This document shows positions 11,794 through 14,175 of a DNA stretch of 26,179 bases, in pieces. The notes under the pieces are model-generated. The model was not told the DNA's origin, did no database searches, and saw only the letters and a program-made list of their open reading frames with translations. The stretch is from positions 1 to 26,179 of the IMG/VR virus record IMGVR_UViG_3300032087_002743, one strand, 5' to 3'. The translations under genes and the position numbers were made by a program. The stretch is from a virus. The first letter of the stretch is position 1. Every line of letters starts with the position of its first letter.

Positions 11794-11822
11794 ATTATAC
11801 ACTACTATCAGTCATCAGTCAA
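11794..11822 (-). promoter_or_regulatory. Strong sigma70-like promoter, near-leaderless
   Basis: Minus strand TTGACT (11822-11817), 17-bp spacer, TATAAT (11799-11794): 11 of 12 consensus bases. Predicted +1 is 11787, 4 nt before the ATG at 11783. A short direct repeat, GACTGAT-GACTGAT, spans the -35. Confidence 0.75.
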
Positions 11823-11831
11823 TGACTAGTT

Positions 11832-12044
11832 TTACAACTCAACCAATTCAATTTCAGTAGAGTTGGGTGGAAACCAGACTTGACACCAGACTTGATCCTC
11901 GACTTGATTCCTGACTTGATCCTCGACTTGATCCCAGACTTGATTCTCGACTTGATCCTCGACTTGATACCAGACTTGATTCTCGACTTGATCCCAGACT
12001 TGATCCCAGACTTGATCCCAGACTTGATTGCTAAGATTTTTCAT
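11832..12044 (-). CDS. Q-V-x-x tetrapeptide repeat protein, copy 1 (70 aa)
   Basis: The protein starts [15 protein letters not shown] and continues as a run of four-residue units Q-V-(W/E/R)-x to about residue 56. It ends in a unique acidic tail ([13 protein letters not shown]). Almost all of the gene is the 12-bp repeat. The ATG overlaps the stop of copy 2 (ATGA). Trp, Gln and Val dominate the composition, with Asp, Glu, Asn, Arg and Tyr at the fourth position. No signal peptide is seen. The fold is unknown; regular extended or solenoid structure is only a guess. It may be a real protein family, or coding may be secondary to the DNA repeat. Confidence 0.6.
11877..12032 (-). repeat. 12-bp tandem repeat array 1, 13 units
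   Basis: Thirteen 12-bp units, in plus-strand terms GACTTG followed by a variable hexamer (ATCCCA, ATTCTC, ATCCTC and similar). GACTTG is invariant in all 13, while the hexamer varies mainly at the two positions that change the residue after Q-V. Period 12 keeps the reading frame open on both strands. Confidence 0.95.
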
Positions 12045-12277
12045 TGTTCAATTTGATCCCTGACTTGACTCCTGACTTGATTCAAGACTTGACACCAGAC
12101 TTGACTCCTGACTTGATTCCAGACTTGTCTCCAGACTCGATCCCAGACTTGAGACCCGACTTGATCCCTGATTTGATCCCAGACTTGACTCCTGACTTGA
12201 GACCCGACTTGATCCCTGACTTGATTCCCGACTTGATTCCTGACTTGATACCAGACTTGGCTTTTAAGATTTTTCAT
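12041..12277 (-). CDS. Q-V-x-x tetrapeptide repeat protein, copy 2 (78 aa)
   Basis: It starts [15 protein letters not shown] and runs as Q-V-x-x units to its end, QVRDQIEQ, without a unique tail. The DNA around its ATG (TTGAACAATGAAAAATCTTA) recurs almost exactly at the start of copy 1, so the copies arose by duplication of a whole gene unit, leader included. The start overlaps the end of copy 3 by 14 bp, and the stop overlaps copy 1 (ATGA). Confidence 0.6.
12062..12265 (-). repeat. 12-bp tandem repeat array 2, 17 units
   Basis: Seventeen 12-bp units in phase; 15 have the exact GACTTG core (plus strand) and two have a single change (GACTCG, GATTTG). Variable hexamers include ACTCCT, AGACCC, ATCCCT and ATTCCC. 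Several neighbouring unit pairs recur (for example ACTCCT then AGACCC then ATCCCT), which suggests expansion by multi-unit duplication. Confidence 0.95.
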
Positions 12278-12473
12278 TGTTCAACTGTCTCCAGACTTGA
12301 CCCCCGACTTGATTCCAGACTTGGCTCCTGACTTGAATCTCGACTTGAATCCCGACTTGAATCCCGACTTGGCTCCTGACTTGATCCCAGACTTGATACC
12401 AGACTTGATACCAGACTTGATCCCTGACTTGATTCGAGACTTGTCTCCAGACTTGATTCCTAAGATTTTTCAT
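12264..12473 (-). CDS. Q-V-x-x tetrapeptide repeat protein, copy 3 (69 aa)
   Basis: It starts [15 protein letters not shown] and consists of Q-V-x-x units with Gly, Ile and Ser variants ([17 protein letters not shown]). It ends QLNNEKS after reading through the duplicated start signal of copy 2. The ATG overlaps the stop of the upstream 199-residue gene (ATGA). As first in the trio it would be translated by coupling with that gene. Confidence 0.6.
12294..12461 (-). repeat. 12-bp tandem repeat array 3, 14 units
   Basis: Fourteen 12-bp units, all with exact GACTTG (plus strand). Hexamers include AATCCC twice in a row, GCTCCT twice, ATACCA twice. The array ends at the shared 13-bp start signal TAAGATTTTTCAT (plus strand), which also follows array 1 and, with one variation, array 2. 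Confidence 0.95.
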
Positions 12474-13069
12474 AGCAGAAAGACCTCAAGATCCTGATCC
12501 GTGTCATCCTCTTGAGTTGTTTCAACCACATGCCTCCCAACAATCTCACCTTCTACGATATAGACATTGGATGGATCATCCTTTCCAAAGTCGATTGCAG
12601 GACCATTGATAGAGTGGCAGACCTGAATGTCTCCAGCGACAATCTCAGAATGAGGAACCTTGAAGTGGACCTTTGGTTTTTTGCTGACAATACAAACCTC
12701 GTCATAGAACAGCGTCCAGCCGAGTTTGGTCATGTCACATATCAGATCGGTCTTGTGCTCGATTCCAGTCACTTCAGGAACCTCATTTTTGAAAAAATCA
12801 AAAAAGGCTGCTGAGTCGCAATGATGGTACATCCAAGAAAAAGACACATCTGTTGCTCCGTATTTCTCTTTAGCGAGCCTAACCGCTTTGGCTGGAGAAT
12901 CCACCACAACAATTGGTGGTGTTTCCATTTCCAATTCGGCATAGACTCGACCAATGATGTCCTCGATCTCAGGCATCTCGGGCATCGTGTCGTCAATACC
13001 CTTTTGAATCCATTTGTTTGCGTAATCAGCCATCTTGGCATTCTGTTCGTTTGTTAGCTTTTTAACCAT
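12470..13069 (-). CDS. DUF6745-like protein (199 aa)
   Basis: The N-terminal part has an early Trp (NKWIQKG), an [21 protein letters not shown] stretch and a helix, in the same order as the DUF6745 family found across phages and actinobacteria. The segment [13 protein letters not shown] resembles the 'H..dGPAiefrdG' repeat of that family, here present once. The C-terminus is acidic ([14 protein letters not shown]). The family has no established function. The gene lies directly upstream of, and overlaps, the Q-V-x-x repeat trio. Confidence 0.7.
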
Positions 13070-13999: not shown

Positions 14000-14175
14000 G
14001 CTCGATAAAATACATCTTCGTTAATCCACTCGGTTGTCGTGAAGTCACCCTTCACGAATTGCACAAAAGGGCAATTCTTTTCCTTACAAAAAGCAATTGC
14101 CTTTTCCCGATCTTCAAATTCGACAACCACAGGGATATTTCCTGCAGGATCGAAAACCTCATAGTGACCTTTCAT
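13996..14175 (-). CDS. Small phage protein (59 aa), leaderless first gene
   Basis: The start is set at ATG 14175 (MKGHYEVFDPAGNIPVVVEF), because a near-consensus promoter predicts transcription from this very base. The upstream extension would run through the promoter. A beta strand, then EDREKAIAFCKEKNC, then FVQFVKGDFTTTEW suggest a small alpha/beta fold of the kind seen in many phage accessory proteins. The function is unknown. The stop is in an ATGA overlap. Confidence 0.65.
   Translation of the reverse strand: MKGHYEVFDPAGNIPVVVEFEDREKAIAFCKEKNCPFVQFVKGDFTTTEWINEDVFYRA

Follow-up and report, generated by a model that had tools for sequence, protein, structure and literature searches.

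The window, i.e., the whole stretch of 26,179 nucleotides analysed here, is a 26-kb virus record carrying a T4-like DNA polymerase, for which the nearest named phages are ~49% identical and are mostly Synechococcus phages. On its minus strand, between positions 12473 and 11832, three overlapping ORFs hold 44 in-frame Q-V-x-x units (QVxx hereafter), the exceptions to the motif being one R-V and one Q-I. An earlier note had described three tandem overlapping ORFs made of a 12-bp repeat and sharing a start signal, and this description was confirmed, including the unit counts of the individual genes (Table 1). All three array ORFs begin with the same module, ATGAAAAATCTTA, and genes 2 and 3 have a longer start module, TTGAACAATGAAAAATCTTA, in common. 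Array genes 1 and 2 overlap by 14 bp and genes 2 and 3 by 4 bp; array gene 1 in turn shares 4 bp with the upstream gene (13069–12470). Purine-rich stretches (GAGG, GGAG, and AGGGA) are located 10–15 nt 5' of the three starts; among 177 stand-alone array genes, 28 have a Shine-Dalgarno-like match of at least five bases, compared with 4 at within-array positions. The array was scored at 429 by Tandem Repeats Finder (period 12, 48 copies), while the next-best repeat in the window reached a score of 60. Its downstream border is marked by a promoter-like consensus match belonging to the next gene. A weak second tandem repeat (24 bp, 1.9 copies) was observed at positions 14063–14107, in the small genes upstream of the array.

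Table 1. Coordinates of the QVxx array genes and associated features in the window.
Feature	Position	Strand	Remarks
Array-less partner	12470..13069	-	199 aa; homologue of array-bearing DUF6745 proteins over both their flanks; last ~100 residues missing
QVxx array gene 1	12264..12473	-	69 aa, 14 units; purine-rich GAGG 5' of start
QVxx array gene 2	12041..12277	-	78 aa, 17 units; predicted single helix
QVxx array gene 3	11832..12044	-	70 aa, 13 units; ~14-residue non-repeat tail
Complete 12-bp tandem repeat	11874..12460	-	~48 copies, Tandem Repeats Finder
Gene 1 start module ATGAAAAATCTTA	12461..12473	-	
Gene 2 start module TTGAACAATGAAAAATCTTA	12265..12284	-	
Gene 3 start module TTGAACAATGAAAAATCTTA	12032..12051	-	
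Promoter-like site of next gene, TTGACT-17-TATAAT	11794..11822	-	consensus match only; 4 found vs 5.2 expected in the region

Little weight can be given to an open frame here: a 12-bp repeat without stops stays open in more than one frame, and ORFs of 58, 95, and 66 aa were found on the plus strand as well. The coding strand and frame were accepted because of the in-frame fused homologues, the varying Q-V hexamer, and the pattern of variation by codon position. The same array is found in frame within larger proteins of the Pfam family DUF6745 (PF20530; E 3.7e-47 for locus L006). For the dominant hexamer encoding Q-V, seven versions were found in different phages (CAAGTC, CAGGTC, CAAGTG, CAAGTA, CAAGTT, CAGGTT, and CAGGTA), and the Q-V codons are near-uniform inside one phage and different between phages. 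In all 52 arrays with at least 15 units, base 7 (the first base of codon 3) had a higher entropy than the third base of the Q codon and than that of the V codon. The variable residues are mainly the third and fourth of the unit, with W, R, G, or E predominating at the third; within fusion proteins, these four residues occupy position 3 in 549 of 631 units. The restriction can be extreme: only bases 7 and 8 vary across the 23 and 25 units of L010 and L052, and only bases 7 and 11 across the 31 units of L157. In L152, where codon 3 ends in C, position 3 is occupied by R, G, Y, S, and D, which represent nearly the same chemical classes, and this argues for selection on the amino acid. Judged from these sequence patterns, the QVxx array is a real protein, and the earlier suggestion of selection on a protein pattern combined with array expansion was supported.

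The repeat could not be placed in a named family: no curated repeat model from Pfam, PHROGs, NCBIfam, or PADLOC matched the window over its cut-off, in line with the earlier statement that the unit is neither a pentapeptide repeat nor any class that could be named. The best sub-threshold match of the window array proteins was to DUF4816 (21.3 bits vs. a cut-off of 29.4), and a sequence search of the PDB returned nothing useful. A structure prediction for the array products, which had been proposed earlier, was run for array protein 2, and AlphaFold2 returned one continuous helix (best-model mean pLDDT 89, pTM 0.41), with mean pLDDT ranging from 68 to 89 over the five models. A single helix is a common AlphaFold output for low-complexity repeats. 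In the model of the fusion protein of L010, the flanking domains were confident (mostly 75–95) and the array had low confidence (pLDDT ~45); for this reason, we regard the helical form of the array only as plausible. The fold of the fusion model had no credible match in the PDB, and in BFVD it matched only the DUF6745 protein of Microcystis phage LMM01 and a few proteins of uncultured phages.

The distribution of (QVxx)n proteins and the identity of their neighbours, which the earlier note had proposed to establish, were investigated by pattern and protein searches of viral contigs. Diversified QVxx arrays were found at 77 loci, of which 20 are fusions and 57 have stand-alone arrays, the latter including some truncated fusions at contig ends and some repeats of one contig. 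In the fused form, the array interrupts a DUF6745 protein: an N-terminal domain of ~80 residues precedes it and the DUF6745 domain follows, and it consists of 8–65 units in all fusions except one; eight array-bearing proteins pass the PF20530 cut-off (>27 bits, up to 160.7). In the stand-alone form, runs of up to ~60 QVxx genes lie beside an array-less DUF6745 gene. PF20530 was detected over the cut-off in 22 of 37 records with stand-alone arrays, compared with none of 38 control contigs, i.e., contigs with simple repeats matched by the same DNA pattern (Fisher p 1.8e-9; whole records), and when only records of at least 20 kb were considered, the counts were 18/26 and 0/15, respectively (p 9e-6). 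DUF6745 was not found in 15 of the 37 stand-alone-array records, many of which are short, while four have a length of 76–103 kb.

At ~16 independent loci possessing both components, the DUF6745 gene and the array gene closest to it share their strand without exception and are -22 to 1,874 bp apart. The co-located DUF6745 proteins have no QV units, and a linker of 13–61 aa is found where the fusions hold at least 6 units. Conversely, in 24 of 24 fusion records, every QVxx match among the matches listed falls inside the fusion ORF. The array is thus supplied either in cis or in trans, and no clear case of both together was seen.

Some of the loci detected deserve separate mention. In L020 (368,758 bases), 63 matches to the QVxx model are spread over ~20 kb (~337–357 kb) around a single DUF6745 gene, so that one gene family has expanded to a very large size; this record also has a reverse transcriptase at 117430–118020. 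L033 (1586–5860) encodes a DUF6745 fusion of 1,425 aa with ~150 degenerate QVxx-like units, which far exceeds the other fusions in length and divergence. A loose-pattern scan of genome contigs, overwhelmed by simple repeats (QVQV, QVTE, and the like), yielded one array of the QVxx kind in a cellular contig (L227). Matches on Aeromonas and Enterococcus plasmids were rejected, as they represent other frames of NQPG and PSTE repeats.

At most trans loci, the array-less partner passes the PF20530 cut-off. For the 199-aa protein encoded upstream of the window array, no Pfam match over the cut-off was obtained, PF20530 included, a large part of the domain being missing. This protein is 45% identical to that of L039, a DUF6745 protein (PF20530 1.4e-34) with three QVxx genes downstream, and a profile built from the two aligned with both flanks of the fusion proteins, leaving the array as a gap (hhalign 99.6, E 6.6e-24). 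No remnant of its absent ~100 C-terminal residues was found in the window, and the protein may be either a shortened working form or a decaying copy. By its gene content, the window arrangement, with stand-alone arrays and an array-less DUF6745 relative, fits the trans form. The closest relative by neighbouring gene is L286, where the downstream gene product is 85% identical to that of the window; in the same place, it has only 2 units in a short ORF and no such partner. The interpretation offered in the earlier note was supported in part: it had missed the upstream DUF6745 relative, as well as the published analogue Tweety gp54.

Length variation in related phages, for which the earlier note had proposed a check, was found, as near-identical contigs differ by whole units (12 or 24 bp). 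The contigs L143 and L153 can be aligned over 9,605 bp with zero mismatches and a single 12-bp gap, which falls in the array; L108 and L129 differ over 2,144 bp by 2 substitutions and one 24-bp gap, again in the array; and L018 and L134, with flanks ~95% identical, have six and two array genes, respectively. Gaps of whole units in metagenome contigs can be assembly errors; their pattern is as expected from recombination between near-identical units. The order of residues at position 3 is close to random, with equal neighbours no commoner than in shuffles, and by itself this order does not suggest a defined target. We saw no clear sign of coupling between positions 3 and 4 and no clear helical periodicity of position 3, the fusions being weakly raised at lags 3, 8, and 11 (z ~3), a signal of which block duplication could be the source. 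No support was found for two other roles considered earlier, a phase-variable switch and a surface function.

Arrays of a comparable kind have been described in the mycobacteriophage proteins Tweety gp54, Che8 gp57, and PMC gp51; each 12-bp unit encodes four residues, two of which are fixed (PMC2884959). In this repeat, A-A is fixed, residue 3 is G, W, or Q, and residue 4 is S or Y; the third codon positions are near-invariant, and codons 3 and 4 vary at their first and second positions. The array is flanked by unique N- and C-terminal parts and is present in 48, 26, and 15 copies among relatives (PMC2884959). In Tweety gp54, there are 40–48 tetrapeptides, and mutants that have gained or lost repeats evade other prophages' defences, the counter-defence being retuned by repeat number (PMC9262239, PMC8549241). 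The QVxx arrays resemble gp54 in their 12-bp tetrapeptide units, two fixed and two variable residues, and differences in copy number, but their fixed residues are Q-V instead of A-A, and no stand-alone multi-gene form has been described for gp54. No Pfam family matched Tweety gp54, which by this test falls outside DUF6745, and comparison of its ends with the fusion proteins by reading revealed no obvious similarity. Since these ends give no sign of homology, any functional inference from gp54 is an analogy.

Among DUF6745 proteins themselves, gp38 of the Mycobacterium prophage prophiGD102-1 (L040:5437–6882) and a protein of phage cta39025 (MW202476; L281:4353–5630) contain a QLxx and an SLxS array, respectively, at the same place as in the QVxx fusions. 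Position 3 is again W, R, and G (E too in cta39025), whereas the fixed residues differ from those of the window and the array is in the fused form. TAL effector repeats, which are much longer and read DNA, also combine near-identical DNA with variation confined to a residue pair; their likeness to QVxx is one of evolutionary pattern only, with no homology. VR2 of Bordetella phage bbp36, as far as it is described where cited in PMC2884959, comprises in-frame variable-number repeats of a 24-bp element in a non-essential phage gene; it is similar to QVxx in having in-frame variable-number repeats and differs in the 24-bp element and the unrelated sequence. No described function was found for DUF6745 (PF20530), and none of the searchable open papers, against which novelty was judged, was found to name QVxx sequences or DUF6745.

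We propose that the QVxx arrays are a tunable interaction module of a DUF6745-based two-part phage system, supplied in cis or in trans and plausibly serving counter-defence, and we consider this proposal evenly balanced between being right and being wrong. According to it, the three window genes would produce stand-alone QVxx proteins, the in-trans part of the system, and the other part would be a DUF6745-type protein, here the 199-aa product of 12470–13069; in other phages, the array is supplied in cis, lying within the DUF6745 protein after its N-terminal domain. Q and V would probably be the constant scaffold of a long helix along which the residues at positions 3 and 4 vary. As near-identical 12-bp units recombine, array length and order would change quickly and in frame, and selection would hold the scaffold and keep position 3 a mixture of aromatic, basic, small, and acidic residues. 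Its likely role would be that of an interaction module tuned against a changing host or rival-phage target, similar to the array of Tweety gp54. A tunable module linked to DUF6745 is drawn from this likeness and from the partner association; a physical interaction of QVxx with DUF6745 we infer, and its role would most plausibly be in counter-defence. The variable binding scaffold suggested in the earlier note remains the best functional guess. It is doubtful, though conceivable, that phages of many kinds combine a constant DUF6745 protein with a set of variable helical QVxx chains, or with one built-in chain, whose positions 3 and 4 spell the recognition of changing partners; if true, this would be a modular recognition helix able to evolve and distinct from every known repeat-code protein.

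Other explanations have to be weighed against this proposal. It seems unlikely that the QVxx helices are a structural or filament module, which self-assembles or coats something and in which the mixture at position 3 serves only helix solubility. The helix prediction, the random order at position 3, and the many array genes of some phages are all in keeping with such a module, but by itself it explains neither the tie to DUF6745 nor the cis-or-trans layout. A molecular ruler, in which the array is only a spacer setting the distance between domains and residues 3 and 4 are irrelevant, has been proposed for Tweety gp54 (PMC9262239). It would suit the position of the fused array between two well-predicted domains and the length changes in whole units; however, a pure spacer leaves unexplained the mixed position 3 amid near-uniform other positions, and arrays supplied in trans are proteins of their own, whose partners have the linker of 13–61 aa. 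As such a protein cannot space the domains of its partner, the array would not be merely a spacer, and we regard the ruler as quite unlikely.

That the repeats have expanded neutrally or selfishly, with no function, is very unlikely: repeats grow easily, and an array is missing beside many relatives of the neighbouring gene, yet such expansion would not account for the partner association (22/37 vs. 0/38), for the like residues at position 3 in phages with different hexamers, or for variation that is non-uniform by codon position. Targeted hypermutation of codon 3, by a diversity-generating retroelement or similar, is highly improbable as the source of the variation, although the random order and the near-zero variation elsewhere are what it would produce. 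The adenines of the Q codon are invariant across the array units, and a reverse transcriptase was found in 1 of 42 records, being absent from the window record, which may be a fragment; a retroelement is unlikely for these two reasons. The lowest probability of all is given to a DNA-level element (iterons, an origin, or a recombination sequence) with the ORFs as a by-product, which the earlier note had listed among the possible roles. The core hexamer is indeed near-uniform within one phage, but the DNA-level element is disfavoured because the hexamer differs between phages while Q-V is kept, and the in-frame fusions within DUF6745 proteins and the start modules with purine-rich leaders also speak against it.

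The QVxx arrays extend what was known from a few mycobacteriophages, in which the repeat number of tetrapeptide-array proteins tunes an unexplained counter-defence. The finding is a widespread two-part phage system that is undescribed in searchable papers: such arrays occur in a different protein family, across many metagenomic phages, within or beside a DUF6745 protein, and DUF6745, an uncharacterised domain, gains a partner. The loci provide natural experiments on array-tuned counter-defence, including cis vs. trans forms, one gene vs. ~60, and near-identical phages one unit apart.

Cellular DUF6745 genes on Deinococcus and Streptomyces plasmids (L283:7389–8399 and L284:5740–6828) adjoin STM4011–4015 radical-SAM clusters, and in the Deinococcus plasmid protein a leucine-rich-repeat-like sequence is joined to the C-terminal part of the domain. 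An unannotated 12-bp array, GTACGTACGCAG, was observed in the Blattabacterium plasmid pMADAR_001 (NC_016150; L276:62–400); all three of its forward frames are open, one of them reading RTQV, and it is probably a DNA-level repeat of this 3-kb plasmid, unrelated to the QVxx arrays.
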